Shown in pieces: positions 7,748 through 43,771 of a stretch of 64,000 bases of DNA. The notes under the pieces were generated by a model, which did no database searches, had not been told where the DNA came from, and was given only the letters and a program-made list of their open reading frames with translations. The stretch comes from Loktanella sp. 3ANDIMAR09. Its GTDB lineage: Bacteria; Pseudomonadota; Alphaproteobacteria; Rhodobacterales; Rhodobacteraceae. Where the stretch lies: the NCBI RefSeq assembly GCF_001420005.1, contig NZ_LJAK01000004.1, positions 1 to 64,000 of the forward strand, in the 5' to 3' direction. The position numbers were made by a program, and so were the translations under genes. Each line of letters begins with the position of its first letter. Position 1 is the first letter of the stretch.

Positions 7748-7748
7748 G

Positions 7749-19120: not shown

Positions 19121-19124
19121 ATCT

Positions 19125-21582: not shown

Positions 21583-21717
21583 AGCAACCTCTTGAAGTGA
21601 AACGGATTTGGAAAAACGAAAAAAACGCGCGAATTTCGGGCTGCGGCGCACCGCGATAGGTTGGCCCCGGGGAACGGTCCCTAACGGGGGGGCGGGTCGC
21701 GGCGGCTGTGCGGGTCG

Positions 21718-24296: not shown

Positions 24297-24298
24297 CG

Positions 24299-26266: not shown

Positions 26267-26309
26267 GTTTTTCTCCTTTGCTACAAATCTCAACTTGAGG
26301 AATTTTCGA

Positions 26310-27743: not shown

Positions 27744-28276
27744 TCTGACGCCCCCGCGGCGCTGAATTTGTCGACCTCGTTCCCCCATGACTCCCAACCC
27801 CGACGGGTCGTTCGGGCGAATAGTTCCAGCTTGCGTTGGCAAGGCCACGCCGCCTCGATCCGGCGCACAATTTCGTCGGGCTTCCGGCTGTGTTCGCGCT
27901 GCTGACCGCTGATCACCGAGTCTGGAAACGGGCAAGGCTTTGGCAACGGGAGCCGGCCGCGCTTGCAGATCAACAGCAGCTCGTGGCGATTGCGCGCCCA
28001 ATATCCGGTGCCGATCCGGTCTTTGATCCAGACGACTTGGCTCACGTATTTGAAGCCCCAGGCAGGCGGCACTGCCATCGACCGGGCCAACATCGGGGCG
28101 GTTGTCCACATCAACAGAAGTGCGTCCTTGGCCGCCCAATCCCTGACAGGCAAAGCGCATATTTCGGCGTCGCTCATACAGGCGTAGTGCCGACGCGGGT
28201 TCCGTCCGGGCTTGGCCGCGCTGTTGCTGGCAAATTTCCAAGGCGGGTCAGCATAGATCAGATCAAACGGGCCCAT
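27740..28276 (-). CDS. MT-A70 family DNA N6-adenine methyltransferase
   Basis: The 178-residue protein carries the MT-A70 catalytic motif DPPW (FDLIYADPPWKF, about 5-15), then DALLLMWTTAPML and ISGQQREHSRKPDEI, the conserved H.RKP segment. MT-A70 enzymes in phages methylate adenine in DNA. The ATG at 28276 overlaps the upstream stop as TGATG; a TTG two codons upstream is possible. It is the third methyltransferase of the operon. Confidence 0.88.
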   Translation of the reverse strand: MGPFDLIYADPPWKFASNSAAKPGRNPRRHYACMSDAEICALPVRDWAAKDALLLMWTTAPMLARSMAVPPAWGFKYVSQVVWIKDRIGTGYWARNRHELLLICKRGRLPLPKPCPFPDSVISGQQREHSRKPDEIVRRIEAAWPCQRKLELFARTTRRGWESWGNEVDKFSAAGASE

Positions 28277-28506
28277 CACCAATAACCCGCCCGCACGTCG
28301 ATCTCTTTTTCACCGGAGAAACCGGGCAGTCTGCGCGTGGACGCTGCAATGTCGTCGTTTCGGACCGCGTTTGACTTGGTGTTCACATAGGCCAAGCCCA
28401 CGCCCAGGCGGGCCGCGATATCCTTTGCGATTTCGCCGGCGCACCGCAGTTTCAGTATTTCCAGAACGCGCTCGTCGTCGTTGCGACTTGGGGTGGGGCT
28501 TGCCAT
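28276..28506 (-). CDS. Small HTH protein (LuxR/sigma-4-like)
   Basis: This 76-residue protein has an HTH over residues of about 12-45 (VLEILKLRCAGEIAKDIAAR, then LGVGLAYVNTKSNAV). It resembles the C-terminal HTH of sigma factors or GerE-type regulators. The start overlaps the primase stop as TGATG. The likely role is as a small phage regulator or DNA-binding accessory protein. Confidence 0.55.
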   Translation of the reverse strand: MASPTPSRNDDERVLEILKLRCAGEIAKDIAARLGVGLAYVNTKSNAVRNDDIAASTRRLPGFSGEKEIDVRAGYW

Positions 28507-30902: not shown

Positions 30903-30907
30903 ACCCC

Positions 30908-31453
30908 CTACCCCCGGCCCAGCGGCAGCGGCGTGGCGATATCTTTCCCGGGCTCAAGGATGGCGCTGGCAAATAGCGCAATCGCGATCGCGTCGGCCTC
31001 GTTGTCGTCCGTCGGGCGATAACCAAGGATCGACAGCATACGAGCCACCGCGATTTTGGCCTCGCCCTTTGGCGGGCGGCCTTTTAAAAGGTGCTTCCGC
31101 ACAGACTGAACGGGGGCCTCGAAAATACGCGGGATGCCGCAAATGCGCGACCGCGCCTCGGTGACAGCGCAAAGCCCAAGAAGAAGCCGGATCGTGTCGA
31201 AGTTTGTCGTCGCCCTGCCCGTTTTCGGGTTTTTCATGTGGCGCGGGTCCATCGGCTGCTCGTAAACGACCGCCGTGATTTCATTTTCTCGAAAGATATC
31301 GTCCAGCCATTCGGAATACCGGGCAAAGGCCATCGCCTGATCCTCTTTCGGACCGGCAAAACGAACGGAACCCGACCGCATGGAAACGCCCGGCGTGCAA
31401 ATCGCCCAGCCGGTTGTCGTTGCAAGGTCAAGGGCAAGGATTTTCGTAGGCAT
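30908..31453 (-). CDS. RuvC-like Holliday-junction endonuclease
   Basis: This 181-residue protein has the RNase H/RuvC fold: first Asp in ILALDLATTTGWA, then a Glu in AVVYEQPM, and the closing Asp pair in TDDNEADAIAIALFA. KGRPPKGEAK is the basic loop. It probably resolves branched DNA before packaging. The gene starts five bases upstream of the primase-helicase gene region, with the same direction. Confidence 0.82.
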   Translation of the reverse strand: MPTKILALDLATTTGWAICTPGVSMRSGSVRFAGPKEDQAMAFARYSEWLDDIFRENEITAVVYEQPMDPRHMKNPKTGRATTNFDTIRLLLGLCAVTEARSRICGIPRIFEAPVQSVRKHLLKGRPPKGEAKIAVARMLSILGYRPTDDNEADAIAIALFASAILEPGKDIATPLPLGRG

Positions 31454-31471
31454 GCAGACTCCGTGCGGGGC

Positions 31472-31552
31472 CTTCGCCCCGTCAAAATTGGCTGACGGTT
31501 CAGATCGGTGTTTTGCGCCTGGGGCGCGTCCCGCCCGAACAGATCGGGCGGG
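31472..31552 (-). other. Pair of GC-rich stem-loops upstream of the RuvC-like gene
   Basis: The gap 31454-31560 holds no gene. It has two hairpins: CGGGGC / GCCCCG at 31472-31487 with a 4-base loop, and a perfect 9-bp stem CCCGCCCGA / TCGGGCGGG at 31530-31552 with a 5-base loop. Neither is followed by a U-tract on the minus strand. They may adjust expression between early genes. Confidence 0.4.
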
Positions 31553-31560
31553 AAAAGGGA

Positions 31561-31827
31561 TTAGGGTCGGTGGCCTTTGAAAAGGCGCGGGCGACTGATG
31601 CGGGTGACGTTTCCGTCGTCGTCGAACGCAACCGCGTGCCGCGACGCCCGGGTGATGTGCTTGCGCGCCGGCGTCCCGCGATTGGCGTGCGGGGCTTTAT
31701 AGTCGCGGAGGGAATTCCCGCCGTCGACGATATCGAGGATCAGACGCTGCGCGTCGTTCAGGTCAAAGCGATCACGGCCCGCCAGATCCCCAGGTCGCGT
31801 TGCGACCTTGTAGGACGCCGGGATCAT
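31561..31827 (-). CDS. Small phage hypothetical
   Basis: This 88-residue basic protein has an N-terminal RFDLNDAQRLILDIVDGG segment, then a RGTPARKHITRASRHAV part that could contact nucleic acid. It overlaps the upstream gene by ATGA. I recognise no family. Confidence 0.5.
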   Translation of the reverse strand: MIPASYKVATRPGDLAGRDRFDLNDAQRLILDIVDGGNSLRDYKAPHANRGTPARKHITRASRHAVAFDDDGNVTRISRPRLFKGHRP

Positions 31828-32249
31828 TGCACGACGCTCATTGCTGGCGCGGCCTTGGCCGGGACCGGATCGCCACCGTTTGCGTTTGTGGCCTGCCGCT
31901 GGGCCTCGCGTTCGCGTTCGCGATCGACGATCCGGCCCATGACGGAAATCAGGTCGTCGTCAAACGCGTCGCGATGGGCAAACATTCCCATAAAATCCGC
32001 GCCCTGAATCAGTTCCCGCAGGAATGTGGTCTGGGTCGGCGGTTCCTTCTTTGACAGCTTGGCGACCGTTGTCAGCGCCTGCTTGTCGAGGGCGTGATCG
32101 TCGGCAAAGGTCTTTGTAGCCGACGCGGCGACGCCGTTATGTTCCTTGGCCTTTTCCTTGGCCGTGTTGATCTGGCCGATCGCGTCGCGATACTTGTCGC
32201 GGGTCAGCGTCACGGTTTCGACCGTGTCAGTCTTGAGTGTTTTCGCCAT
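31824..32249 (-). CDS. Phage hypothetical, helical (possibly GapR-like)
   Basis: This 141-residue protein has a helical core (KYRDAIGQINTAKEKAKEHN and LDKQALTTVAKLSKKEPPTQ) whose helix-loop-helix layout faintly recalls the GapR/DUF2312 DNA-binding fold. The last 35 residues are charged and low-complexity. It overlaps the upstream gene by 23 bases. The GapR resemblance is weak and unverified. Confidence 0.5.
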   Translation of the reverse strand: MAKTLKTDTVETVTLTRDKYRDAIGQINTAKEKAKEHNGVAASATKTFADDHALDKQALTTVAKLSKKEPPTQTTFLRELIQGADFMGMFAHRDAFDDDLISVMGRIVDREREREAQRQATNANGGDPVPAKAAPAMSVVQ

Positions 32250-32631
32250 CTTTGGAGTCCTTTTCCAATTTTGCCGCGCGTCGCTTTTTCAGCCACGCCC
32301 GGATTTCGGTCGATTGAACGTCGTCGTCGAAAGGGAGAGGTTCGCAGCGCGGAACCTCGGCAGGCCAAGGCAATTCGCTGGGCCAAATTTGCGAAATCAG
32401 GCCGAGGGCCCGATCCATGCGATGCGAGGAAAATTTGAAGGGCGTTCCCGAAATCACCGAATAGCGCGCGGTCTGAAAAAACCGGGTGTCGTTCAGCAAA
32501 ATCGAGGAAAGGGCCGCGGGACCGGTGCCGTAAAAAATACAGAGGTCCGAGACCAAGATCGAAAGGTCAAACGCGACGCGCTGGGAATAAACCCGCCGGG
32601 ACGCCGCAACGTGCTGGAAGCCTTGTCCCAT
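32227..32631 (-). CDS. Phage hypothetical
   Basis: This 134-residue protein starts at 32631, four bases after the upstream stop. It has a compact hydrophobic part, FDLSILVSDLCIFYGTG, and a C-terminal basic tail (WLKKRRAAKLEKD). The part of the frame further upstream is shadow sequence. Function is unknown. Confidence 0.55.
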   Translation of the reverse strand: MGQGFQHVAASRRVYSQRVAFDLSILVSDLCIFYGTGPAALSSILLNDTRFFQTARYSVISGTPFKFSSHRMDRALGLISQIWPSELPWPAEVPRCEPLPFDDDVQSTEIRAWLKKRRAAKLEKDSKDGENTQD

Positions 32632-32635
32632 ATCG

Positions 32636-33076
32636 TCAGCCCCCCGCCTCGATCGTTGCGCGGGCGGTTCGCAGCGCCTCAATCGCTTCGTCAATCTCGG
32701 AAAGGGCATCCGCCCGGCAGTTGTCCTCGGCGCTGGATTGCGCCGAAAGGATCGCCGCGACAGCCTCGCCACATTCTTTGGATATCGCGCCCGCCTGTCG
32801 CGTGATGCAAAGGCTCGAACCGGCACCGGTTTCCTTGAGGCGGCGCGCCATCATCCGCGTGACCGGATATTTCCCGGCGGCATCCTCAAGCGCGAGAATG
32901 TCAGCCAGCGGCCAATCAAGCGAACCGGAGCGTCGCCGGGAAATTGTCGCCTTTGAAACCCCGTTGCCCAATCGGGCGACGATCGTATCAGCGGCCGCGT
33001 CGTAGCACTGAAACGTGCCGTCGATCAGGGCCGACACAAGGGCGTTGATCTGCGCCCGTGGGTTCCCGCCGATCAT
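32636..33076 (-). CDS. HTH protein in CII position (early regulator)
   Basis: The 146-residue protein starts at 33076, with GAGGT six bases upstream. Residues of about 30-80 look like an HTH (VARLGNGVSKATISRRRSGS, then LDWPLADILALED), resembling phage regulatory proteins of the CII type. A long acidic helical C-terminus (about 100-146) could oligomerise. It is the second gene after Cro, the usual place of CII. The assignment is by position and fold. Confidence 0.55.
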   Translation of the reverse strand: MIGGNPRAQINALVSALIDGTFQCYDAAADTIVARLGNGVSKATISRRRSGSLDWPLADILALEDAAGKYPVTRMMARRLKETGAGSSLCITRQAGAISKECGEAVAAILSAQSSAEDNCRADALSEIDEAIEALRTARATIEAGG

Positions 33077-33143
33077 CGTGCAACCTCGTTGCTTTGCCCT
33101 GCCCGCGATTGGCGACCATGTTTGAGGCATGAAACAAAAAACA

Positions 33144-33389
33144 TCATCCCGCCTCCCGCAAAGCGTCGATCACGCTCTCAGGGTAGAAATCCGCCGGGCT
33201 CAAACCCCAGCCCCTGGCGGGCGAGGCCGCCAAAAGCAGCGCGGCACACTCGGGCGGGATAAATCCGCCAGTGCCGCGCTTTTCTTTCGAGAAGGTCCAC
33301 TTTCGGACAGACGACACCGCCCGTCCGGTGACTTCGGAGACGGCCTCAAAGCCGCCGCAGGTCGCAATGATTGATTTAGCAGGTTCCAT
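33144..33389 (-). CDS. Cro-like repressor
   Basis: This 81-residue protein has a single HTH (IIATCGGFEAVSEVTGRAVS followed by VRKW) as in Cro/YdaS-type proteins. It is divergent from the S24 repressor, across TTCCGAT operators. A -35/-10 pair lies at 33420-33425 / 33397-33402, which puts the probable start site within one or two bases of the ATG, so the mRNA may be leaderless. It would repress the repressor gene during lytic growth. Confidence 0.72.
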   Translation of the reverse strand: MEPAKSIIATCGGFEAVSEVTGRAVSSVRKWTFSKEKRGTGGFIPPECAALLLAASPARGWGLSPADFYPESVIDALREAG

Positions 33390-33396
33390 AGCGCCA

Positions 33397-33474
33397 CATA
33401 TTCCGATTATCGGAGATTTAGTCAAGCGCGAATGTTCCGATTTTGTGAGGTTTCCCGTTTTGCGGAAATCGGAA
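33397..33474. promoter_or_regulatory. Immunity operators and cro promoter
   Basis: Operator-like sites share the half-site TTCCGAT. O1 at 33402-33414 is the perfect inverted repeat TCCGAT-T-ATCGGA. O2 has one good half-site at 33435-33441. O3 has ATCGGAA at 33468-33474. On the minus strand TTGACT (33425-33420), 17 bases and AATATG (33402-33397) form a promoter for cro, with O1 between the two boxes. O3 overlaps the likely repressor SD, so it may be autoregulatory. Confidence 0.65.
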
Positions 33475-33486
33475 AGAATGCACGAC

Positions 33487-34146
33487 ATGGAAATCGTCGA
33501 CGCCGAATGGATCAAAAAACGCCTGACAGGTGCGCGCGGCGAGAAGTCCCGCCTTGCCGATTGGCTAGGCATGCCCGCAAACAAAGTGACCAAAATCCTA
33601 ACCGGCGAACGGCGCGTTCAGGCGGCCGAGGTCCCGGCCATCCTTTCCTTTTTCGAGGAGGAACAAGCCAACCGGTCAGCCGACGACGCGCTTCCGTTTC
33701 GGATCAACGAAAACACGGGGCCCGCATCGGACTCGACGATGGTTCAGCTTTTCCAGGTCGAGGCGTCGGCCGGCAACGGATCGGTGGTCGACGAATCCGA
33801 CGAGGTCGCAACCGAATTGACCCTGCCCCGTGGATATTTGCGAAAAATTACGGCGTCGCACCCGCGGCATTTGGCGATTATCAGCGTTAAGGGCGACAGC
33901 ATGAGCCCGACACTACGCGACGACGACCTAGTCATGGTCGACCGCAGCAAGACCGATCTGTCATTCGACGGCCTGTTCGTTTTGCGCTTTGACAACGCCC
34001 TGCACGTCAAAAGGATCGGCCGATCACCTGTTCGCGGCCACGTTCGAATTATATCAGATAACGCGGTTTACGGGGCGCAGGACTATCCTGCCGACGACGT
34101 TGCCGCGATTGGGAAAGTCATCTGGTCAGGAGGGAAAATAGGATGA
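33487..34146 (+). CDS. S24-family phage repressor (CI/LexA-like)
   Basis: The 219-residue protein has an N-terminal HTH (about 5-45, LADWLGMPANKVTKILTGER) and a C-terminal S24 peptidase domain with VKGDSMSP (Ser138) and ALHVKRIG (Lys175). An Ala95-Gly96 pair in VEASAGNG is a possible self-cleavage site, so RecA-triggered induction is plausible. GGAAAG lies ten bases before the ATG at 33487; the ATG at 33478 has it too close. It maintains lysogeny by binding the TTCCGAT sites. It overlaps the next gene by ATGA. Confidence 0.88.
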   Translation: MEIVDAEWIKKRLTGARGEKSRLADWLGMPANKVTKILTGERRVQAAEVPAILSFFEEEQANRSADDALPFRINENTGPASDSTMVQLFQVEASAGNGSVVDESDEVATELTLPRGYLRKITASHPRHLAIISVKGDSMSPTLRDDDLVMVDRSKTDLSFDGLFVLRFDNALHVKRIGRSPVRGHVRIISDNAVYGAQDYPADDVAAIGKVIWSGGKIG

Positions 34147-34640
34147 AATCAAAGTGTTTGGCGGCAATTTTGTCGGTGATAGCGACCGCCGGATCGGCAC
34201 AGTGGATGCACGAGGAGTCAGGCGGCGCATTTGACGGATCACCTACGCAGCTGGCGATGGCGGCAAACCTCGATTACGGCTTTGGGCTGCGATGCACCGA
34301 CGAATTTGATCTGGTCGCGATATTCGTGACCCCGGAACAAATCGACCAGGATACCCTGGACCGCATGACGGCGTTGCTGCCGACGGTGCTGATCAGGGTC
34401 GACGACAACGAACCCTTTGAATTGCCATCCGAAGGGCTCGTGGCTCCACAAGGCGCGTCCTATCTTGGCGACGCGCCCGCCGACCTTGCGGTTCAAATCG
34501 CAGGCGCGAAAACAAGCGTATCTGTCGCGATTTCCTTGCTGGGGGAGATTTACCACGAAACCCGGTTCGGATCATCGGGATCGACCCGGGCGGCAAATCT
34601 TGTGATCGAAAACTGCGGATTGGACCCGGCGGATAGCTGA
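34143..34640 (+). CDS. Secreted protein co-expressed with repressor (candidate lysogenic-conversion gene)
   Basis: This 165-residue protein has a typical signal peptide at 1-19 (MKSKCLAAILSVIATAGSA) followed by a periplasmic domain with two Cys (GLRCTDEF and IENCGLDP) that could form a disulfide. The ATGA overlap with the repressor stop makes it translationally coupled, so it should be made during lysogeny. Superinfection exclusion or modification of the lysogen surface are possible roles. No family is recognised. Confidence 0.65.
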   Translation: MKSKCLAAILSVIATAGSAQWMHEESGGAFDGSPTQLAMAANLDYGFGLRCTDEFDLVAIFVTPEQIDQDTLDRMTALLPTVLIRVDDNEPFELPSEGLVAPQGASYLGDAPADLAVQIAGAKTSVSVAISLLGEIYHETRFGSSGSTRAANLVIENCGLDPADS

Positions 34641-34782
34641 TCCTCTACCCCCGCGCGCGCGGTGATTGAGAACGCGCGCACGCGCATGGAATGACCGTTC
34701 CGCTTGTTGATACGTTGTCTCATTCTATCGTTGCAATTTTTTACAAACGTCAGTCAAGAGGAAAAAAAGCGACACGGTTGAT

Positions 34783-34816
34783 GGGGGCGGCCCTTATAGG
34801 GGCCGCCCCCTTTCTC
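34783..34816 (+). terminator. Terminator of the repressor operon
   Basis: An 11-bp stem (GGGGGCGGCCC / GGGCCGCCCCC) at 34783-34793 and 34800-34810 is followed by TTTCTC. It is the obvious stop for transcripts of the repressor and secreted-protein genes. Confidence 0.7.
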
Positions 34817-34911
34817 TACCGACTCGCCTGATCAGCACCAGCGCCTGACGGATTCGCGCAAGGACGTCCGCACGTCCGCAAGCGTGAGTCGCAACGGCGG
34901 CACAAAGAAAT

Positions 34912-34964
34912 TTCCGATCATCGGAATTTTTTGGGTTGACCTTAGTTCCGATATTCGGATTAAG
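34912..34964 (+). promoter_or_regulatory. Early rightward promoter with two repressor operators
   Basis: TTGACC (34936-34941), a 17-base spacer and ATTAAG (34959-34964) form the promoter. A perfect operator TTCCGAT-C-ATCGGAA lies at 34912-34926. A second, TTCCGAT-A-TTCGGAT, lies at 34946-34960 between the boxes. The layout mirrors the cro promoter, so the repressor should shut both. Confidence 0.7.
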
Positions 34965-34988
34965 TCGGTTCCAACGAAGGAGCCAAAA

Positions 34989-35189
34989 ATGCTGATTTCC
35001 CGATTTGCAAACATTCGCGACCAAGACCTGCTGCCCTGGTCGCCGCCCCGCAGGGGGCGCATCCGAGGCGCGATCAAGGAGGCGTTTTACGCCGTCGCCT
35101 TTGTCGTCGTCGTCATGTCGTTGGTCTGGGTCTTGGCTGACGTCGCATGGACCTACCTCGTGTTTTGCGAACCCTGCGAGGCGCGATAA
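34989..35189 (+). CDS. Small single-pass membrane protein
   Basis: This 66-residue protein starts at 34989 with AAGGAG six bases upstream. A strong transmembrane segment covers residues of about 34-58; the N-terminal half is basic and should be cytoplasmic. It is the first gene after the operator-controlled promoter, and its stop overlaps the next start (TAATG). Function is unknown. Confidence 0.6.
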   Translation: MLISRFANIRDQDLLPWSPPRRGRIRGAIKEAFYAVAFVVVVMSLVWVLADVAWTYLVFCEPCEAR

Positions 35190-36136
35190 TGGGGCGGATC
35201 GAGGCGCATTATCCCAAGACCCGCGACGCCTGGCACGCCCTGCGCGCAAAGGACGTGACCGCGTCGGTCGTCGGAGCCCTTTTCGGGGCTCACGAATACA
35301 CGACCCGGTTCGAACTTTGGCACCAAAAGGCGGGAAATCTGACAACCGCGCGCGAGGAAACCGCCGCAATGCGTCGGGGCACGCTTCTTGAGCCGGTCGC
35401 GGTTGCCATGCTTGCTGATGCCCGGCCGGATTGGCGGATCAGCTACAGCACATCGCAGATGGTCTATTTTCGCGATGCCGAGGTTCGTCTTGGCGCAACG
35501 CCTGATTTGATCGTGGATTGCCCCCAGCGTGGACGGGGAACGGTTCAGATCAAAACCTGCACCGCTGGCGACTTCGCAAAGAAGTGGCGCGGCGACGATG
35601 GCGAACCCGAGGCCCCCCTCTGGATCAATCTGCAAACCGAGGTCGAGCGATATCTGACGAATTCGCAATGGGCCGCCGTTGCCGTTCTGACGCTCGACAC
35701 AAGGGCTCAACTCGAAATCGAAATTGTCGACGTTCCGCGCGTCGACGGGGTGATCAGTTCAATCAAAGGCGCTTGCCGCACATTCTGGGCCGACGTCGCG
35801 TCGGGCCTTGAGCCTGATCCAGATTTCACGCGCGACGCCGACGTCATATCCGCCGCCTACCCTGCCGAGGATCCTGAAAAGCATCTCGACCTGACCACCG
35901 CCGCCGATATTGAAACACTGATATCGGAGGCGCAGGAGGCGTCCCGGCAGCGCCAAGAGGCCGACGCCCGGCTCAAATCATTGCGTGCGGAAATCAAGCA
36001 CCGGATGGGCGACGCTGATACGGCGCACCTATCGGGCGGGCGTCAAATCACACTCCGAACCGAGCATCGGCCTGGCGCATTTACGGGGCCCAGCAAGTTC
36101 CGGCGCCTACGCCTTCCGCGGGCGATCCAGCAATGA
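35189..36136 (+). CDS. YqaJ-type recombination exonuclease
   Basis: The 315-residue protein is a YqaJ-family (lambda Exo-like) nuclease. DAWHALRAKDVTASVVGALF is the N-terminal DNA-binding signature, and GATPDLIVD with VQIKTC is the PD-(D/E)XK-type core. Gln stands where Glu is common (QIK). The C-terminal 90 residues are helical and acidic. It would make 3' single strands for the RecT protein encoded downstream. Confidence 0.85.
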   Translation: MGRIEAHYPKTRDAWHALRAKDVTASVVGALFGAHEYTTRFELWHQKAGNLTTAREETAAMRRGTLLEPVAVAMLADARPDWRISYSTSQMVYFRDAEVRLGATPDLIVDCPQRGRGTVQIKTCTAGDFAKKWRGDDGEPEAPLWINLQTEVERYLTNSQWAAVAVLTLDTRAQLEIEIVDVPRVDGVISSIKGACRTFWADVASGLEPDPDFTRDADVISAAYPAEDPEKHLDLTTAADIETLISEAQEASRQRQEADARLKSLRAEIKHRMGDADTAHLSGGRQITLRTEHRPGAFTGPSKFRRLRLPRAIQQ

Positions 36137-36516
36137 CGCGCCAACAGAACATAAAGGCCGCCGCCCCGACCCGCTGGGTTCTGGCGGCGCGGTTCGATCA
36201 AGATATCGACACGCGCGGGATGCGTCAGATGTGGGCCAAGGCCCTGATGCTTGCGCTTTGCGATATTGTGAAGCCCCCCGCGCTGACCGGGACCAAAGAG
36301 AAAGACACGCGCAATCACGTCGAATGGCAAAACGGGTTTTCCTATTTGGACAGCCGCGATTTTCGCGAAGTCGCCAGCCTTGCCGGGTTTGAACCCAGCG
36401 CGATTGCAGATCGGATCCGCCCTCTTGCCAACGACCGAAAGGCCGCCGCGCGCATGGCGAAAGACTTTTACGCAGACCGCAACCACCAGAAAAAAGGGAA
36501 AATCAAAGATGCCTGA
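36133..36516 (+). CDS. Phage hypothetical
   Basis: This 127-residue basic protein has two Trp-containing segments (RWVLAARFDQDIDTRGMRQM, HVEWQNGFSYLDSRDFREVA) and a helical C-terminus. It is coupled by ATGA between the exonuclease and the coiled-coil gene of the recombination cluster. Function is unknown. Confidence 0.55.
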   Translation: MTRQQNIKAAAPTRWVLAARFDQDIDTRGMRQMWAKALMLALCDIVKPPALTGTKEKDTRNHVEWQNGFSYLDSRDFREVASLAGFEPSAIADRIRPLANDRKAAARMAKDFYADRNHQKKGKIKDA

Positions 36517-37276
36517 TGGAACAACAACAGCCCGCCGTCGCGCTGTCGACCAAGTGTTCGGCGACAACCGCGCGCCGATCGCGGAGGTCCTGCCCGCCGA
36601 CCACGCCGATCTGGTCGCGGAAATCAACCGCGCTTGCGTCGACGCCAAAAACCGCACGCCGGCAAAAATCACGACGGAAAATGAACTGACAGACGCGGGG
36701 AAGATCATCACCGAACTCCGCGCCTTGGCGAAAAAGGCCGACGGCGTTCGATCGGATGAAAAGGCCCCGATCATCGAAACGGGCCGCGCGATTGACGGAT
36801 TTTTCCGCGATCTGATCCAGATGATCGACGGCGCGATCACGCCGTTGCGCAGCGCCGCCGATGATTTTGCGCGCCGTCGGGCGGCCGAGGAAGCCGCACG
36901 CCGCCGCCGCGAGGAAGAAATCGCCCGGGAAAAGGCCGCCGCCGCCCAGAAACGCGCGGAGAACGCCAAATCGCCCGAGGCCGCGGCAAAGGCCGCCGCC
37001 GAACAGGAGGCGCAAGAGGCCGTCGCCAGCGGCGCGGCACAGGCCAAGACGCAACCGGTTCGCGGGAATGGCGTCACCGCCGGCACGCGCAAAACCTGGG
37101 ACTTTGAAATCCTGGACTCGTCGGCCTTGCGCCAATCGCTGGGGGCCCTTGGTCCGTTTCTCGACGAGGCGTCGCTTGAAAAGGCGATCCGATCCTTCGT
37201 GAAAATCCACAAGGGTTCGACCGCCCTGCCCGGCGTTCGCGCCTTTGAAAAAACCACCACGCAATTCCGCGCCTAA
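36509..37276 (+). CDS. Coiled-coil protein of the recombination cluster
   Basis: The 255-residue protein has a long charged helix at about 110-180 with Ala/Glu/Arg repeats. The C-terminal domain (about 195-255) has a KTWDFEILDSSALRQSLGAL segment. Similar coiled-coil proteins often sit with phage recombinases, and may organise single-stranded DNA, but I cannot name a family. It overlaps the previous gene by eight bases. Confidence 0.6.
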   Translation: MPDGTTTARRRAVDQVFGDNRAPIAEVLPADHADLVAEINRACVDAKNRTPAKITTENELTDAGKIITELRALAKKADGVRSDEKAPIIETGRAIDGFFRDLIQMIDGAITPLRSAADDFARRRAAEEAARRRREEEIAREKAAAAQKRAENAKSPEAAAKAAAEQEAQEAVASGAAQAKTQPVRGNGVTAGTRKTWDFEILDSSALRQSLGALGPFLDEASLEKAIRSFVKIHKGSTALPGVRAFEKTTTQFRA

Positions 37277-37296
37277 GCGCGACGAAAGGGAACGAC

Positions 37297-38235
37297 ATGA
37301 ACGACCTAGCGACAACAACGGCCACGCAACAACAGGCCCCGACGCGAAAAGCCGACCTCCGGTCTGATCGTCCGGGCGGCGCGATGCTCCCAAGCACGTT
37401 CGAGGAAGCCTGGCGCTTGTCCGAGGCGCTTGCCAAGGGTGGTGGCGACATGATCCCGAAGCATTTTCAGGGCAACGTCGGCGCGGTCTTTGCCGCGATC
37501 CAGCGCGGGGCCGAATTGGGCTTTGCCCCAATGGCCTCGATGCAACAGATCGCGGTGATCAACGGTCGCCCGTCGATTTGGGGCGACGCCCTCCCCGCCT
37601 TGGTCCTTCGGGCCGGCCATCGGCTCGACGAGGTCGTCGAGGGCGAGGGCGACAAGGCCGTGGCGACCGCGACCGTGACCCGTGGCGATACCGGGCACCA
37701 GATCACCCGCACGTTTTCGATGGCTGATGCAAAAAAGGCGGGCCTCGCCGGGAAGCAGGGCCCTTGGCAGCAATACCCAAAACGGATGCTCCAAATGCGG
37801 GCCCGTGGCTTTGCTGTTCGCGACGGCTGCGCCGACGTTTTGCTGGGCTTGTCGGTTGTCGAGGAGGTCCGGGACGCGCCGCAAATGCGTGACGTGACCC
37901 CGGCCAGCGCCGCCCAGAAAATGCAGGCAATCGCAAGCGCCGGGACCGCCGATCCCGCGCCCGCTGACGATCAGATTGATGATCACGGTGCGCAAAACGA
38001 CGCGACACGGGAAACCACCGACGATCACCGCCAAGCGGATCCGGGCGAAACCGCCAAGGAGCCCAGCGAACCGACCGGAGACGAAATCGAGGCGGCGCGG
38101 AGCCGCGGGTTCGAGTCTTTCGACCTGGGCGTTCCCTTGGCGGCAACGCCCCCCGAATACGCCGATTTTCCCGCGCTGACGAAGGCGTGGAAGGCCGGAT
38201 GGAACGAAGGCGAGAAGGCCGCAAAGGCGGGCTGA
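37297..38235 (+). CDS. recT: RecT-family annealase with RMF-like C-terminus
   Basis: The 312-residue protein is RecT-like over residues of about 30-200: LPSTFEEAWRLSEALAKGGG, VGAVFAAIQRGAELGFAPMA, INGRPSIWGDALPALVLRAG and a WQQYPKRMLQMRARGFAVRD core. It would anneal complementary single strands with the YqaJ nuclease. After an acidic linker, residues of about 262-312 (RSRGFESFDLGV, ALTKAWKAGWNEGE) resemble ribosome modulation factor/CrpP folds, an unusual addition. The start is ATG at 37297 following a short 20-base gap. Confidence 0.87.
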   Translation: MNDLATTTATQQQAPTRKADLRSDRPGGAMLPSTFEEAWRLSEALAKGGGDMIPKHFQGNVGAVFAAIQRGAELGFAPMASMQQIAVINGRPSIWGDALPALVLRAGHRLDEVVEGEGDKAVATATVTRGDTGHQITRTFSMADAKKAGLAGKQGPWQQYPKRMLQMRARGFAVRDGCADVLLGLSVVEEVRDAPQMRDVTPASAAQKMQAIASAGTADPAPADDQIDDHGAQNDATRETTDDHRQADPGETAKEPSEPTGDEIEAARSRGFESFDLGVPLAATPPEYADFPALTKAWKAGWNEGEKAAKAG

Positions 38236-38280
38236 TCCCCACGAAATAGGTCGCCGCGACCTCCTCCCCGCGTCGATCTA

Positions 38281-38303
38281 GGGGCGATCCAAAAGATCGC
38301 CCC
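38281..38303 (+). terminator. Perfect 9-bp stem-loop between RecT and the exonuclease
   Basis: GGGGCGATC / GATCGCCCC with a 5-base CAAAA loop lies in the 94-bp gap. No U-tract follows. It is a candidate mRNA processing or attenuation site. Confidence 0.4.
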
Positions 38304-38329
38304 GCCAACAACCCCCGAAAGGAATCCAC

Positions 38330-38998
38330 ATGATCCCGACCTACCTTGTTTTTGACACCGAAACCACCGGCTTGCCCGTTCGTTCCGCGCGCGGCGAACC
38401 GCCGGTCCCTGCCGATGATCCCCGCCAGCCCCGCGTGCTGTCGTTTGCCGCTATCGTTGCCAACGCAGACGGACACGAAATCAGCCGGGACAAGATTTAC
38501 GTGCGGCCCGAGGGTTTCACGGTCGCGGAATGCGATGCCCGCGCAATCGCTGACGGCAAGCGCCCCGCTTCTGAAATCAATGGTCTAAATGACGATTTCC
38601 TTAACGAATATGGCCATCCGATTGGCGCTGTTCTTGATATCTGGAATCAGGCGATAGACGGGGGCCTGATCCCGGTCGCCTTCAACGCGCAGTTCGACAC
38701 CAAGATGATGCGGGGCGAATTGCGTAGCGCAGGGATGCCGGATCGGTTTGAAGAAACGCCCAACATCTGCGCCATGAAGGCACTATGGCCCTACCGCGCC
38801 GAGGGCCTGGACGTAAAGTCTGGCGGATTTGTTTCCCTCGCCATTGCCTGCGAATACTTCGGGATCGTCAACGAAAACGCTCACGATGCAATGGCCGACG
38901 CCGAGGCCGCGCGGGCAATCCTTGAACGATTGATCCGCGATGATCGCCTGCCTAATCCGACGCTCCGGACAGCCAAGAATCACGGGGCCACACTATGA
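38330..38998 (+). CDS. DnaQ-like 3'-5' exonuclease (DEDDh)
   Basis: This 222-residue protein has the four exonuclease motifs: FDTETTG (DxE), NAQFDTKMM (Exo II), HDAMADAEAARAI (His and Asp of Exo III), and an intervening conserved segment. It is a stand-alone exonuclease for recombination or proofreading. SD GAAAGGAA lies upstream, and it is coupled by ATGA to the acyl carrier protein gene. Confidence 0.85.
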   Translation: MIPTYLVFDTETTGLPVRSARGEPPVPADDPRQPRVLSFAAIVANADGHEISRDKIYVRPEGFTVAECDARAIADGKRPASEINGLNDDFLNEYGHPIGAVLDIWNQAIDGGLIPVAFNAQFDTKMMRGELRSAGMPDRFEETPNICAMKALWPYRAEGLDVKSGGFVSLAIACEYFGIVNENAHDAMADAEAARAILERLIRDDRLPNPTLRTAKNHGATL

Positions 38999-39276
38999 AC
39001 CGCGCCCTTATCAAAACCGAGACCAAGGTCATTGAAATCCTGACCGAGCATCTTTTTGCGCACTCGGAACACAAGATCCGCATCGTTCCGACAACGACCC
39101 TTGGCGACATGGACACCGACAGCCTCGATCACGTCGAAATCGCGATGCTGATCGAGGAAGAATTCGAGATGGAATTCAGTTCGACCGTGATCGACACGGT
39201 CTTTAACGGCTCGGCCACGGTCGCAAGCATCGCGGCAGCAATCGACGCCCATCGTTCCGAAAAGGGGGCGGCATAG
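38995..39276 (+). CDS. Acyl carrier protein-like protein
   Basis: The 93-residue protein is an acyl carrier protein by the attachment motif DTDSLDHVEIAMLIEEEF (Ser43 carries 4'-phosphopantetheine) and by helix II-III patterns. The length is typical. It overlaps the exonuclease gene by four bases, so it is part of the phage operon and not a stray host gene. No fatty-acid or polyketide gene is nearby. It may be charged by a host transferase and serve a membrane or regulatory function, but no substrate is evident. Confidence 0.85.
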   Translation: MNRALIKTETKVIEILTEHLFAHSEHKIRIVPTTTLGDMDTDSLDHVEIAMLIEEEFEMEFSSTVIDTVFNGSATVASIAAAIDAHRSEKGAA

Positions 39277-39278
39277 TC

Positions 39279-39611
39279 ATGGGCCGCGCATTGAACGACA
39301 CGGTCGTCATTCGCTTGGCCCGCAGCGAGGCGGAATCCATCCGGCTTGGTCTTGCCGATATCCTTTGCTGGATATCCGGTTTCAGGGCCGCACGGGAGGG
39401 CACGGACCTTGCCGGTCACGAGCCGCTTGGCGTTGACCGGGCCCGCGATATCAGCCGCAAGCTACTTGGTGCCTTGGAACCGTTGGATTTGGCCCAGATC
39501 GAACTGCAATCCTTGATTGCGGCGACGCACACGAGACTCAAGGCCGCGGGCGACCATCAGACCGCCCACCTGCTCCTGACCGTCGCCCGCGAGGCAGGGT
39601 ATGACCTATGA
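39279..39611 (+). CDS. Phage hypothetical
   Basis: The 110-residue protein is helical, with RARDISRKLLGALEPLDLAQ and an IELQSLIAATHTRLKAAGD segment. It starts two bases after the ACP stop. I recognise no family; a role with ACP is only suggested by proximity. Confidence 0.5.
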   Translation: MGRALNDTVVIRLARSEAESIRLGLADILCWISGFRAAREGTDLAGHEPLGVDRARDISRKLLGALEPLDLAQIELQSLIAATHTRLKAAGDHQTAHLLLTVAREAGYDL

Positions 39612-39934
39612 CATACCGACCCAAAACGTTCCGCGATGAAACCGCCCGCCAACAGTGGCTCGCAAAGCAAAGGCGCAGTCCTGACGGCCTCGGCCCCGCG
39701 CCGGATGCCGATTTCCGCGCCCTGCTTGATGCGAATACCGAACAGCGGGTGCTAGAAACCAAGGCGCTGCACGCGGTTCGCGATCTGCGCCAAGCCGCCA
39801 GCGCCGCAATCGAGGCAATGGACAAGGCACATCCGAACTCCGACGCGACCGCGCTGGTGCGCTCGATCCGCGACCAGATTGACACGCTGTTTATGTCCGG
39901 CCGGCGTGCCGTGTCTCGGGAGCCACGCGAATGA
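39608..39934 (+). CDS. Phage hypothetical
   Basis: The 108-residue protein is helical and charged, with a LETKALHAVRDLRQAASAAI helix and an N-terminal RPKTFRDETARQQWLAKQRR basic part. It is coupled by ATGA on both sides. Function is unknown. Confidence 0.5.
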   Translation: MTYRPKTFRDETARQQWLAKQRRSPDGLGPAPDADFRALLDANTEQRVLETKALHAVRDLRQAASAAIEAMDKAHPNSDATALVRSIRDQIDTLFMSGRRAVSREPRE

Positions 39935-40080
39935 GCCGCCCGCGCATGTGCTGGCCTTGCCGCCTGTTCTGGCAGGCCGTGGTTGTATTTGTCGCGGTTG
40001 GGCTTGTGGCGATTGCCGTCCTGCTGATCGCCGTGGCCGCTGACGCGCTGTTTTACCTGACAACGATGAAAGGAAAGTGA
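39931..40080 (+). CDS. Small single-pass membrane protein
   Basis: This 49-residue protein has an N-terminal MSRPRMCWPCRLFW with a CxxC, then one transmembrane helix (about 16-40) and a short KGK tail. ATG overlaps the previous stop (ATGA), and its stop is followed after one base by the next ATG. Such tiny membrane proteins are common in phage operons and may inhibit host functions. Function is unknown. Confidence 0.55.
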   Translation: MSRPRMCWPCRLFWQAVVVFVAVGLVAIAVLLIAVAADALFYLTTMKGK

Positions 40081-40081
40081 G

Positions 40082-40639
40082 ATGGGTGATGCACTGAAAC
40101 CATGCCCGTTTTGTGGGGGGAATGCCGCGATATCGAAAGACTATGACCCAGACGGCAGTGGCGCATTCTATGCAATTCGATGCAACAACTGCCGCGCCCA
40201 GTCATCGAACGTTTACGCGGTTGAGACATGCCCAATTCACTTCGCGCAAGTCAGGGGCGCATGGAACACCCGCGCCGAGGCCGACGCCCTGCGCGCAGAG
40301 GTCGAAAGGCTGCGGGGGGAACTTCGGAGCGTTGCAAGGCTCGCGCATAGCGGATTGCAGTCTGGCAAGCGAATATCAGAGCAATCTTGCCTTGAACTGA
40401 TTTTGAAGGACGCCCGCGCCGCCCTCGCCCCGACAGGTGATGCACAGAAGGCCCCTGCCGATACCGTAGAGGTGATGGCGGTGGATTGCGTCGGCTGCGG
40501 CAAACCAGCGACCGGGCGATGCATGGTCGATTGCGGTATGTCGCTTTGCGGCTATCCGGTCTGCGACACATGCGCTCATGTTGATGAAGGCTACGGGTGG
40601 TCGCACAAGCCCCGCCGCACGACTGGCGGTGACGCATGA
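40082..40639 (+). CDS. Lar-like restriction-alleviation protein with added zinc-binding tail
   Basis: The 185-residue protein starts LKPCPFCGGNA, then IRCNNCRAQS and VRGAWNTRA, which is the Lar family signature (two CxxC pairs). The tail (about 135-185) adds more Cys pairs (CVGCGKPATGRCMVDCG, VCDTCAH) not found in Lar. Lar modulates type I restriction in the Rac prophage, so anti-restriction is plausible. SD-like GGAAAGTGAG precedes the ATG. Confidence 0.75.
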   Translation: MGDALKPCPFCGGNAAISKDYDPDGSGAFYAIRCNNCRAQSSNVYAVETCPIHFAQVRGAWNTRAEADALRAEVERLRGELRSVARLAHSGLQSGKRISEQSCLELILKDARAALAPTGDAQKAPADTVEVMAVDCVGCGKPATGRCMVDCGMSLCGYPVCDTCAHVDEGYGWSHKPRRTTGGDA

Positions 40640-40908
40640 TCGACGGCAACACCCGCGCAATCGACGCACACCTCGCAGAACACGACGCCAGGATCGGGAC
40701 CGAGGAAGGTGAACGCTGCAACCGTCAGGGCTGCGACGGGACGATGGTTTTCGAGGACGTTGAGGGCTGTTCCTGCCACATCAACGCGCCGTGCCACGGC
40801 CACGAGAACCAGCAAATAATTTGCGACGGCTGCGGCTACGGCCCAGACGATGAACCCGCCGACGATGATCGCGGCGACTATCTCCGCGACAAGGCACAGG
40901 ACAGGTGA
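40636..40908 (+). CDS. Zinc-ribbon-like hypothetical
   Basis: The 90-residue protein has CNRQGC, CSCH and CDGCGYG with interspersed His, likely a zinc-binding fold. It overlaps the Lar-like gene by four bases. Function is unknown. Confidence 0.55.
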   Translation: MIDGNTRAIDAHLAEHDARIGTEEGERCNRQGCDGTMVFEDVEGCSCHINAPCHGHENQQIICDGCGYGPDDEPADDDRGDYLRDKAQDR

Positions 40909-40912
40909 CGAA

Positions 40913-41569
40913 ATGACCGACCGCCCGATCCCCTTTTCCCCAGACATGATGCGCGCGGTCCTGCGCGAGATCGCCGCGCCTGGCACCGGCAAGACGCAGA
41001 CGCGGCGGGTGCTGAAACCGCAGCCCGAACCGGGCGGCGAGGCGCGTTTATGGACGCCGCCCAACCCGTCGATGCTTTGCGTCCAAATAGACAAGCGGCA
41101 CATACACGGCAGCACAGTGGCAATTACCGTTCCTGCCCCCAGCGACCGGCTCTGGGTCCGCGAGGCGTGGCGGACCACCACGTTTTACGACGACCAACCG
41201 CCGCGCGACATGGGAAGCGAGACACCGATCCGCTACGAGTGCGACGGCGCATGGGAAACATGGGGATGGAAGCGAGACCACAACGAAGGCCGCTACCGCC
41301 CGCCGATGTTCATGCCTCGCTGGGCCAGCCGCGTGACGCTGACCGTCACCGACGTGAAAGTGCAGCGCGTGCAGGACATATCCGAGGCCGATGCGTGGGC
41401 GGAAGGCGTCCACAGACAGCCGTTCGACACCGGAACCGAAATGTTCCGTACCCTCTGGGACAGCCTGAACGACAAGCGCGGATTCGGCTGGGACGTGAAC
41501 CCGTGGGTCGTCGCCGTCACCTTCCGCCCGGTGGCGGGCAACATCGACCAGATTGGAGAGGCAGCATGA
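40913..41569 (+). CDS. Conserved phage ASCH-like protein
   Basis: This 218-residue protein matches a widespread phage family: TQTRRVLKPQP near the N-terminus, DRLWVREAWR, PPMFMPRWASRVTLTVTDVK and FRTLWDSLNDKRGFGWD. The family has the ASCH/PUA-like fold expected to bind RNA or nucleotides. Its role in phages is not known to me. It starts five bases after the previous stop. Confidence 0.7.
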   Translation: MTDRPIPFSPDMMRAVLREIAAPGTGKTQTRRVLKPQPEPGGEARLWTPPNPSMLCVQIDKRHIHGSTVAITVPAPSDRLWVREAWRTTTFYDDQPPRDMGSETPIRYECDGAWETWGWKRDHNEGRYRPPMFMPRWASRVTLTVTDVKVQRVQDISEADAWAEGVHRQPFDTGTEMFRTLWDSLNDKRGFGWDVNPWVVAVTFRPVAGNIDQIGEAA

Positions 41570-42150
41570 TCGACGCATTCCCTTTGCAATGGCCGCACGG
41601 CCGCGCGCGCACAAAGGCCCGGTCGGATTCCCGGTTCAAGGTTTCGCATTCCAAAGCGTTCGAGGAAATGGTGTCAGAACTGGACCGGTTCGACGTTACA
41701 CACGTCGTCGTCAGCACAAACATTCCCCTGCGGCGCGACGGCACGCCATACCGCGACGGCCTAAATGAGCTGCTCGAAGATCCGGGCGTTGCGATCTACT
41801 TCACCCGCAAGAAGCGACAGATTGCGCTGTGCTGCGATACCTACCGCCGCCCATACGAAAATATCCGGGCGCTGGGACTGGCGATCAAATCTCTGCGCGA
41901 CATGGACCGACACGGGGCAGGCCAGATCCTAGATCAAGCGTTCGAGGGTTTGACTGCGCTGCCCGCGCCCGGCGCGACGGACGAGGCCGACAACCGCGCG
42001 TGGTGGGTTGTGCTGGGATGCCAACCCAACGCCAGCGCCGACGAGGTTCGGGCCGCCTACAAGAAGCAAGCCCGCGAGGCGGGCGGCGCATCGGTTGAAT
42101 TGAACGCGGCAAAGGATGCCGGGCTGATAGCAGCGGGAGAGGCAGCATGA
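41566..42150 (+). CDS. J-domain-like phage protein lacking HPD
   Basis: The 194-residue protein starts at 41566 with GGAGAGG upstream. Residues of about 15-140 (FEEMVSELDRFDVTHVVVST, then RQIALCCDTYRRPYENI) form a conserved phage domain. The last 50 residues (WWVVLGCQPNASADEVRAAY, then KKQAREAGG) look like J-domain helices I-II, but the HPD loop is missing. DnaK activation is therefore doubtful. It may bind DNA or partner proteins. Confidence 0.65.
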   Translation: MIDAFPLQWPHGRARTKARSDSRFKVSHSKAFEEMVSELDRFDVTHVVVSTNIPLRRDGTPYRDGLNELLEDPGVAIYFTRKKRQIALCCDTYRRPYENIRALGLAIKSLRDMDRHGAGQILDQAFEGLTALPAPGATDEADNRAWWVVLGCQPNASADEVRAAYKKQAREAGGASVELNAAKDAGLIAAGEAA

Positions 42151-42362
42151 TTTGGCGCGGTGAAACCCAGAAGCAATGGATAGAGCGGATGGCAACGTGG
42201 CAGCGATGGTTCGCCTGGCATCCAGTCCAGTTGGATGATGGGTGCTGGATTTGGTTAGAAACGGTCGAACGAGTCGTTGATCACTACCGGGGGCCGTATT
42301 TGCGGCTGGATCGCGTCTGGCGCTACCGGAAAATCGCAGCGGGAGGATCCGATGGGACATAA
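42147..42362 (+). CDS. Small Trp-rich phage hypothetical
   Basis: The 71-residue protein has eight Trp in its first 60 residues (WQRWFAWHPVQLDDGCWIWL). It is coupled by ATGA to the J-domain-like gene and overlaps the excisionase start. Function is unknown. Confidence 0.5.
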   Translation: MIWRGETQKQWIERMATWQRWFAWHPVQLDDGCWIWLETVERVVDHYRGPYLRLDRVWRYRKIAAGGSDGT

Positions 42363-42639
42363 CCGCCGAACAGATCACGCCCTCGCGGCCTCTGCCGTCC
42401 AGACGCCCCCGGCCCCTCGACTGCTTGGATACGTCAGCGTCAGCACCCTTGCGCAGCTGCTCGACGTATCCGAAACGACCGTCTGGGACTTGACTCGCAA
42501 GGGCCACATACCGAAGCCTGTCCGCTACGGCGGTTCAACCCGCTGGCGCTGGTCGGACGTCGAGGCCCACATCGAGGGGCGACAGGGCGCGCCGGCCGTC
42601 GACGACGATCCGATTTTGAGGGCAAGCCGTGGCAGCTGA
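42352..42639 (+). CDS. Excisionase / AlpA-type HTH protein
   Basis: The 95-residue protein has an AlpA/MerR-like HTH at about 27-65 (VSVSTLAQLLDVSETTVWDL, then GHIPKPVRYGGSTRWRWSDV). It overlaps the integrase gene start, a usual arrangement for Xis. GGGAGG lies five bases before the ATG at 42352. Confidence 0.78.
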   Translation: MGHNRRTDHALAASAVQTPPAPRLLGYVSVSTLAQLLDVSETTVWDLTRKGHIPKPVRYGGSTRWRWSDVEAHIEGRQGAPAVDDDPILRASRGS

Positions 42640-43771
42640 TCTGACGCTTGAGGCCTACGTGCAGCGCAAGAAGCGCGGCGCGCGGGAATACTTCTATTTT
42701 CGCGTGGTGCGCGACGGGAAAGAAACCCGCCTGCCATTGCCCCACCCGTTCAGCGCAGACTACCGCGCCGCCTATGACGCAGCACACCGCCAGGTTTTCG
42801 GGTCGGCACCTGGTGATTTCGACAGCCCTACCGGGGTGCGCGCCTTGGTCAAGGCGCATCGCGCCAGCGCCCGCTACGAACGCCTGCCGAAGCAGTCCAA
42901 AACGATCCGCGAATACGCCCTGACCCTGATCGACGATCGCTGGGGCGATTTCGAGGCCCGCGATATTCGCCCGATCCACGTTCAGGCGCTTTACGACACC
43001 CTTGCCGCACGCCCGGCCAGCGCCAACCGACGGCTGGACGATATCAGCGCCATTTTTGGCTGGGGGATCCCGCGCGGGTTTGTCGACGAAAACCCCTGCC
43101 GCGGCGTCGAACGGGTCCAAAGCACCGACAGCTATGAGCCTTGGCCCGACGCGGCCCTTACGATCCTGATGGAGCAAGGCCTGCCGCATATCGTGCGGCC
43201 CGCGCTTGTCGCCACCTACACCGGCCAGCGGCGCGGCGACGTTCTCAAACAATTCTGCGACCACCAGATCGACGGCGCGACGTGGTATCTCAAACAGGGC
43301 AAGACGCAGAACGAGGTTCCGGTCCCGCTGCACCCGGTTGTGCTGGCCTTGGCAGAATCCGAACGGGCCGCCCGTCGCGCGGCCGCCGTGGTCGATCCCA
43401 AGCGCCCGCTGCTGACGAACAGCAAGGGCGACGTCTGGACCGATAGTGGATACGGCGCGTCATGGCGCACCGAACTGATCCGGCTGGGCCTGCGCCCCGA
43501 AAAGAATGACGATTACGAGGACGGCCAGTTTCGCCCGACATTCCACGGGCTGCGCCATACGACGGCTACGATGATCGCAAACGCGGTCGCCCGGAACCCG
43601 GATCTATTCGGCGGAATCGGTCGGGTGAAAACGATGCTCGACCACCTGTCCGAGCGCATGGCCGCGCACTACGCGCGCCGCGCTGAGGTCGAACACATGA
43701 ACGCCGAAACGATTCTGCTCTTGCCTGACATTGGGAACACAGGGGCAAAAATTGGGAACGCGCCGCGATGA
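42629..43771 (+). CDS. int: Tyrosine recombinase integrase
   Basis: The 380-residue integrase starts at a GTG (GAGGG six bases upstream). It has an arm-binding N-terminal part, a core-binding SAM-like domain at about 85-175 and the catalytic domain. Catalytic residues are Arg201 (TGQRRGD), Lys225 (QGKTQNE), His306/Arg309 (HGLRH), His339 (MLDHLSERM) and Tyr348 (AAHYARR). It integrates the phage at the neighbouring tRNA-Val. Its gene ends 23 bases from the tRNA 3' end. Confidence 0.93.
   Translation: MAADLTLEAYVQRKKRGAREYFYFRVVRDGKETRLPLPHPFSADYRAAYDAAHRQVFGSAPGDFDSPTGVRALVKAHRASARYERLPKQSKTIREYALTLIDDRWGDFEARDIRPIHVQALYDTLAARPASANRRLDDISAIFGWGIPRGFVDENPCRGVERVQSTDSYEPWPDAALTILMEQGLPHIVRPALVATYTGQRRGDVLKQFCDHQIDGATWYLKQGKTQNEVPVPLHPVVLALAESERAARRAAAVVDPKRPLLTNSKGDVWTDSGYGASWRTELIRLGLRPEKNDDYEDGQFRPTFHGLRHTTATMIANAVARNPDLFGGIGRVKTMLDHLSERMAAHYARRAEVEHMNAETILLLPDIGNTGAKIGNAPR

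Follow-up and report, generated by a model that had tools for sequence, protein, structure and literature searches.

An acyl carrier protein gene in the recombination operon of a Loktanella prophage and its association with a small protein family beside phage annealing proteins

The carrier protein gene and its prophage

The window analyzed in this work, a stretch of 64,000 nucleotides of Loktanella sp. 3ANDIMAR09 whose first base is the start of the genome contig, contains an IMG/VR-predicted prophage with terminase, portal, major head, tail sheath, tape measure and baseplate genes of a tailed phage. In the early region of this prophage lies an operon (Table 1) in which an acyl carrier protein (ACP) gene is preceded by the YqaJ and RecT genes and followed by genes for a 110-aa protein, a 108-aa protein and a Lar-like protein. 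The 110-aa protein, which matches no Pfam or PHROG family, belongs to a family that we have named LAD after its motif, LADxLxWxxGFxAA. The first-pass annotation of this DNA had described an operon with recT and a YqaJ nuclease, and both assignments are borne out by the PHROG profiles listed in the table; the Pfam RecT score of the window RecT taken alone is 21.6, below the cut-off of 24. The overlap of four bases that had been reported between the exonuclease and ACP genes is also present, with the TGA stop of the former and the ATG start of the latter sharing the bases ATGA at 38995-38998.

Table 1. Features of the prophage and its recombination operon, in window coordinates.
Feature	Position	Strand	Basis and remarks
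Prophage, IMG/VR prediction IMGVR_UViG_2648501806_000007	1..43771	.	Same coordinates in IMG/VR; window base 1 is the genome contig start
CI-like repressor (S24 peptidase)	33271..34146	+	Pfam and PHROG scans
YqaJ / RecE-like exonuclease	35147..36136	+	Pfam YqaJ, phrog_434 E 8.5e-52; start codon uncertain
127-aa operon protein without assigned function	36133..36516	+	ORF; no Pfam or PHROG family
255-aa operon protein without assigned function	36509..37276	+	ORF; no Pfam family
RecT-like ssDNA annealing protein	37297..38235	+	phrog_561 E 3.5e-53
DnaQ-like 3'-5' exonuclease	38330..38998	+	Pfam RNase_T, phrog_192
Phage acyl carrier protein (ACP), 93 aa	38995..39276	+	Pfam PP-binding, phrog_5934, AlphaFold2, Foldseek
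LAD-family protein, 110 aa	39279..39611	+	46% identity to L037 homologue, reciprocal profile searches, low-confidence helical model
108-aa protein without assigned function, 4-base overlap with LAD	39608..39934	+	ORF; PHROG matches weak only
Lar-like restriction alleviation protein	40082..40639	+	Pfam PF14354, phrog_599
Tyrosine integrase, right end of prophage	42629..43771	+	phrog_1 E 1.1e-29; Pfam just below cut-off
tRNA-Val, behind integrase	43795-43870	-	ARAGORN

The ACP gene runs from an ATG start to a TAG stop and carries the attachment motif DSL in the codons GAC AGC CTC (39118-39126), of which 39121-39123 encode Ser43. Its product matches the Pfam PP-binding domain with 26.5 bits (E 7.5e-6), above the gathering cut-off of 20.8, and phrog_5934, "acyl carrier protein", with an E-value of 2.2e-9. 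The phrog_5934 profile also matches bacterial AcpPs, in 292 of 295 genomes, and is thus useless as a marker of phage ACPs. Against the NCBIfam acyl_carrier equivalog the score is 35.8 bits, under the cut-off of 70.45, and the protein is therefore called an ACP but not the housekeeping AcpP. An AlphaFold2 model built from 35 sequences (pLDDT 89.8) has the four-helix ACP fold, with helices predicted at residues 3-20, 43-57, 63-69 and 76-92, the second of which is acidic and begins with Ser43. When this model was compared with the PDB by Foldseek, solved ACPs came out on top with a probability of 1.00, the best being the AcpS-ACP complex 4dxe (E 5.5e-3); none fell below 0.001. The earlier description of a complete ACP with the DSL motif is thereby upheld, and the window ACP is a real carrier protein that can probably be modified. 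It is a genuine member of a known group of phage ACPs, so that the kind of gene is not new.

The gene stands outside any fab cluster and within the recombination operon instead. As had been claimed from the first inspection, no other lipid gene lies nearby: of 30 window ORFs that were scanned, and which make up part of the prophage ORFs, the ACP was the only one to match a family of lipid, acyltransferase or ketosynthase genes (ten scanned with Pfam and PHROGs, ten with PHROGs and ten with Pfam). On the opposite strand at 22995-26293 the prophage also carries a C-5 cytosine methylase gene and a DUF4942/methyltransferase gene, which together with the Lar-like gene perhaps form an anti-restriction set.

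Neighbors of the ACP gene

The closest relative of the operon was found in a second prophage of the same genus (G001:C21, IMG/VR 2695420928_000002; loci L006 and L037 in our numbering, hereafter L037). Its YqaJ and RecT genes are relatives of their window counterparts (E 9e-112 and 1e-16, from a comparison on a small scale), its RecT gave no match in the PDB, and the operon also includes a 125-aa protein. Identity between the two prophages is 63% for the exonuclease, 36% for the ACP and 46% for the LAD protein, which in L037 is a homologue of 132 aa. The exonuclease genes, 67% identical at the DNA level, overlap the ACP gene by four bases in the window and by one base in L037. The two ACPs agree at 12 of 16 residues of helix II versus 19 of 70 elsewhere (Fisher P 0.0009).

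The tight overlap had been taken in the first-pass annotation as a sign that the ACP is a stable member of the phage operon, and for the link to the exonuclease this is overstated. Only two of 11 viral loci whose exonuclease is 38-100% identical to that of the window (L035-L045) have an ACP-like ORF in the flanks examined, and the exonuclease is hence no constant companion of the ACP; the LAD gene, for its part, is present in two of nine genomes of the genus. Among 80 viral loci found via the exonuclease an ACP-like ORF occurs in four (L035, L037, L098 and L106), and in a scan of genome contigs none was found in 80 loci among the exonuclease matches listed, which include a Mameliella exonuclease 53% identical to that of the window. 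An ACP in a recombination operon, which it had been proposed to look for elsewhere, does recur in other prophages and viral contigs.

A general tendency of phage ACPs to lie beside nucleases was considered and discarded. The comparison of 73 coupled neighbors of ACPs, taken from 75 non-redundant loci, with 73 controls (8 of 81 control entries were dropped as also being ACP neighbors) gave no clear nuclease excess: in the best 25 of 52 and 96 families there were three RusA, one or two HNH and one DnaQ beside ACPs, and two HNH and one RecE beside controls. No relative of the window exonuclease was found among the 73 ACP neighbors. Searches with the ACPs themselves returned little. By tblastn neither the window ACP nor that of L006 had a match in the phage collection at E 0.01, while scans of IMG/VR retrieved only the own prophage with the window ACP alone, only the two known prophages with the window and L006 ACPs, and only L098 itself with the L098 ACP.

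Several other arrangements of phage ACP genes were seen in the course of these searches. In Erythrobacter phage R6L (L232, 5174-6138) and in the UViG L317 (3929-4953) there is a direct overlap between the ACP gene and a gene for a RusA resolvase. At 3620-4459 of L304 and L305 a PP-binding domain forms part of a 279-aa phage protein whose N-terminal part appears MazG-like by eye; Pfam reported only ACP-type domains on the L304 protein. Pseudomonas phage HRDY3 (L319, 780-1749) has two tandem ACP genes, the first with an additional N-terminal part of about 170 aa.

Nine members of the LAD family have been found, in the window, L037, L098 and L341-L346. The L098 contig (IMG/VR 2864976888_000005) encodes a DnaQ-like exonuclease, a Bet-like annealing protein and a phrog_5934 ACP in succession, and among 21,414 ORFs from outside the family the 114-aa ORF behind this ACP scored best, with an E-value of 0.31, closely ahead of an unrelated ORF of L282 at 0.35; hhalign aligned the 114-aa ORF with the 110-aa protein of the window over 38 columns with a probability of 84.7. 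A scan of IMG/VR with the LAD proteins of the window, L037 and L098 added the six contigs L341-L346, and a second scan with all nine sequences found no further member. In the reciprocal direction, a profile of L098 and L341-L345, from which the window, L037 and L346 had been excluded, was searched against the 21,414 ORFs and placed L037 (E 0.0046) and the window (E 0.011) ahead of all other ORFs that were not part of it, the best of which came at 0.2. The homology of the window protein to other members lies mainly in the motif region, and the L346 ORF, of 161 aa, has the motif in its second half. The structure model of the LAD protein is helical, of low confidence (pLDDT 65.8), and had no meaningful match in the PDB by Foldseek, with nothing below E 1. 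The family was found neither in public phages (query L344 protein) nor in plasmids (query L098 protein), and among 385 genomes of the class it occurs in one, the own genome. A further small ORF lies between the ACP and LAD genes in L342 (5723-6004) and L098 (about 10294-10575) and, judged by eye, seems conserved between these two.

All nine LAD loci have a gene for an annealing protein of the RecT/Bet type nearby. It belongs to phrog_561 in the window, to the Bet-like phrog_252 in L098, L341, L342, L344 and L345, and to phrog_148 in L346; the gene of L037 is related to the window RecT (E 1e-16) and that of L343 is a homologue of the one in L342. An ACP gene lies upstream of LAD in the same operon in six of the nine (window, L037, L098, L341, L342 and L343), and was not found in the examined flanks of L344, L345 and L346. 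The gap between the ACP and LAD genes is 2 bases in the window and 195-720 bases in L037, L098, L341 and L342. When L342 and L343, which are 96% identical in DNA, are merged (L344 and L345, at 82%, being counted apart), the count becomes five of eight distinct loci, a figure that is inflated in that the window was the query, L037 was reached through the window and L098 was noticed through its ACP. Among the five distinct loci found by LAD alone (L341, L342/L343, L344, L345 and L346) an ACP is present in two. The chance of this is 0.00015 if the base rate is taken as 0.4%, from 195 ACP-bearing records among 50,697, and rises to 0.004 at 2% and 0.023 at 5%, so that LAD and ACP occur together more often than the base rate would give, although the excess is weak should that rate be close to 5%. 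The converse search, through flanks of up to 4 kb around 80 viral loci retrieved by their ACP, did not turn up a LAD gene, the best E-value being 0.2.

On these counts LAD appears to be a more constant neighbor of the ACP than the exonuclease, and the likeliest candidate for its partner. It had been suggested at the outset that the ACP might bind the next two small proteins; the co-occurrence of the LAD family would favor the first of the two only. The setting of a phage ACP with an annealing protein and LAD is new, recurring and unusual, and a search of the PMC literature, in the article text that it covered, did not come upon any paper that deals with an ACP in the annealing-protein operon of a phage or with phage ACPs lacking the serine.

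Origin of the ACP and its attachment serine

The origin of the ACP was addressed with two trees. The first (99 rows, 79 columns) comprised 14 bacterial AcpPs, 75 non-redundant viral ACPs and ten others, and placed the window and L037 ACPs together with an SH-aLRT of 87. The second (50 rows) contained 34 of 80 viral ACPs drawn at random and four further operon ACPs, with the long-branched named rows omitted, and again joined the two, with a bootstrap of 93, a value that had not yet stabilized, and an SH-aLRT of 61. Both trees give the two ACPs long branches and resolve only a minority of the forks. The operon ACPs fall in two places, and a single clade of all six, when tested, had a p-AU of 0.33. 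In the second tree the window and L037 ACPs lie within a supported set of 11 rows (95/89) that also holds bacterial AcpPs, which makes descent from a bacterial acpP long ago possible. A recent copy of the host acpP, the alternative that had been raised along with the first description, is rejected on account of the long branches and of an identity of just 36% between the window ACP and the AcpP of the same genome (G000:C2:314409).

Five of the six operon ACPs, or four of the five distinct ones, have the DSL motif, and in L098 it reads DRL. Loss of Ser43 in close relatives had been named beforehand as an outcome that would refute the first description. L037, the closest relative, retains the serine, and the more distant operon of L098 has lost it. 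Serine-less proteins in which helix II is kept were also seen in four of 25 ACP-like proteins from 24 named records (Lu11 and K452 with D, phiMAM1 and the rIIB protein of Aswh_1 with E), a proportion that is not a rate since these records were hand-picked; one of them, L330 (CAKLQH020000007, Acinetobacter MD-2021a, with fabD-fabG-acpP), looks bacterial. Relatives repeat the loss, with E in Kevin, KNP4 and ZPAH1 and D in AS-zj. The 80 ACP loci from IMG/VR are silent on other serine losses because the pattern used to find them admitted no residue but S or R at this position. The losses in L098 and in these ACP-like proteins from unrelated phages would suggest that an ACP surface can persist without the phosphopantetheine arm.

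Two of these groups deserve mention in their own right. In Aeromonas phages Aswh_1 (L326), ZPAH1 (L338) and AS-zj (L339) the rIIB protein has an N-terminal ACP-like domain in which the serine is replaced by Glu or Asp, and at 3647-5005 of L316 there is a 452-aa protein with HTH and PP-binding domains that is rIIB-like by eye and has an intact DSL. The Serratia Miltonvirus phages phiMAM1 (L237, 4977-5249), Kevin and KNP4 (L336 and L337) encode "acyl carrier proteins" with DEL for DSL, in which the usual attachment serine is thus absent.

Possible roles and comparison with known systems

The reading that we favor, tentatively and with a probability of about 0.4, is that the phage may keep its ACP as a dedicated subunit for docking or regulation in a single-strand annealing recombination module, with LAD as its likeliest partner. 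The ACP would be made after the exonuclease from the overlapping start, the overlap being observed and the coupling of translation presumed, and a host transferase of the AcpS type would load phosphopantetheine onto Ser43. The carrier protein would then bind the small, putatively helical LAD protein encoded next, as their co-occurrence suggests, and the pair might stabilize or tune the machinery of RecT and exonuclease, perhaps according to the cell's acyl state, which is the weakest step of the scheme. This docking or regulatory role is preferred because of the company of LAD and the serine losses, taken with the roles that ACPs have outside lipid synthesis elsewhere. The closer conservation of helix II and the exonuclease-ACP overlap retained in both prophages also speak for it. 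Against it count the serine itself, retained by five of the six operon ACPs as would equally be expected of a true carrier, the occurrence of LAD without an ACP in L344-L346, the failure to find LAD around the 80 ACP-retrieved loci, the variable gap between the two genes, the close runner-up to L098 in the ORF search, the absence of a clear nuclease excess beside phage ACPs and the poor LAD model. It is doubtful whether the idea extends to temperate phages of alphaproteobacteria and similar hosts at large, such that a two-protein ACP-LAD adaptor would dock on their annealing machines with or without the arm and the ACP would have a structural or acyl-sensing part in recombination.

The usual interpretation of phage ACPs is that they are auxiliary metabolic genes (in the parts consulted of PMC8224337 and PMC11705849), and applied to the window this would mean that host AcpS loads the phage ACP, which then carries acyl chains for fatty-acid, lipid A or membrane synthesis during infection. 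The intact DSL site, the acidic helix II, the ACP fold and the AcpS-ACP complex as best structural match all agree with such a use, but the location in a recombination operon, the want of any other lipid gene among the 30 scanned ORFs, the loss of the serine in one operon relative (L098) and the low identity to the own AcpP do not, and we consider it rather unlikely. Host proteins that normally bind AcpP include AcpS, SpoT and an SMC or iron-sulphur factor, and the phage ACP might take over such partners or act as a decoy, binding them and shifting their activity. That the binding helix is kept closer than the rest of the ACP and that serine-less phage ACP-like proteins exist would agree with this, and AcpP does have partners outside lipid synthesis according to the text consulted of PMC11406308 and PMC8602292; this reading does not explain, however, why LAD and annealing proteins are found with the ACP time and again, and we regard it as improbable.

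Just as improbable, in our judgment, is that the ACP and LAD are independent morons or anti-defence genes, accessory genes gathered in the early region that work neither with RecT nor with each other. The Lar gene downstream would suit a collection of this kind, as would the lack of an ACP in the examined flanks of three of nine LAD loci and in nine of 11 loci with a close exonuclease, and the absence of clear nuclease enrichment beside phage ACPs in general. The co-occurrence of LAD and ACP above the base rate argues against independence, weakly so if that rate is near 5%, as does the exonuclease overlap kept in two prophages. Phage ACPs have for years been listed as auxiliary metabolic genes with unclear roles, and the ACP-LAD pair supplies a concrete candidate partner; along with the serine-less relatives it offers a way to ask whether ACP serves phages for the docking of proteins in DNA metabolism and not for carrying lipids.

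The known phage ACPs resemble that of the window in part. Those of PHROG 5934 and 4154 are likewise ACP-like proteins with a DSL site in tailed phages. ORF32 of Erythrobacter phage R6L is an ACP, and the text consulted of the R6L paper states that the function of phage ACPs "remains unclear" and does not mention a setting of annealing protein and LAD (PMC5463345). This protein, gp32 of vB_EliS-R6L, also has 93 aa, and its gene overlaps the RusA resolvase gene by four bases; unlike the window, R6L has no LAD homologue within the 13 kb examined. Further ACPs are reported in phages R22Y and R16F in what was consulted of PMC11705849 and PMC10152775, and a putative ACP appears once in the mass-spectrometry table of a Vi01-like phage in the portion consulted of PMC10892097. 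In the consulted sections of PMC8224337 acpP is given as an auxiliary metabolic gene of eight Rhodobacteraceae phages and prophages, being the single such gene of Celeribacter marinus prophage 2; three of them have the bacterial order fabG-acpP-fabF, unlike the window, and these sections mention no recombination operon. The bacterial AcpP of the own genome has the fold, DSL motif and acidic helix II in common with the window ACP, which differs from it in its low identity and different helix III, in scoring below the NCBIfam cut-offs and in having no fab cluster.

The proposed working of the ACP-LAD pair would have parallels outside phages. Mitochondrial ACP-LYR pairs, in which an ACP and a small helical protein control a larger enzyme, are a parallel in idea only, and the ACP of Plasmodium, as far as the consulted text of PMC8547962 goes, binds Isd11-Nfs1 without the phosphopantetheine arm. 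The action of AcpP on MukB, which the apo and holo forms stimulate to an equal extent (PMC8602292, consulted in part), and the use of ACP by TnsD of Tn7 (PMC11406308, likewise) may be likened to the proposed working too.
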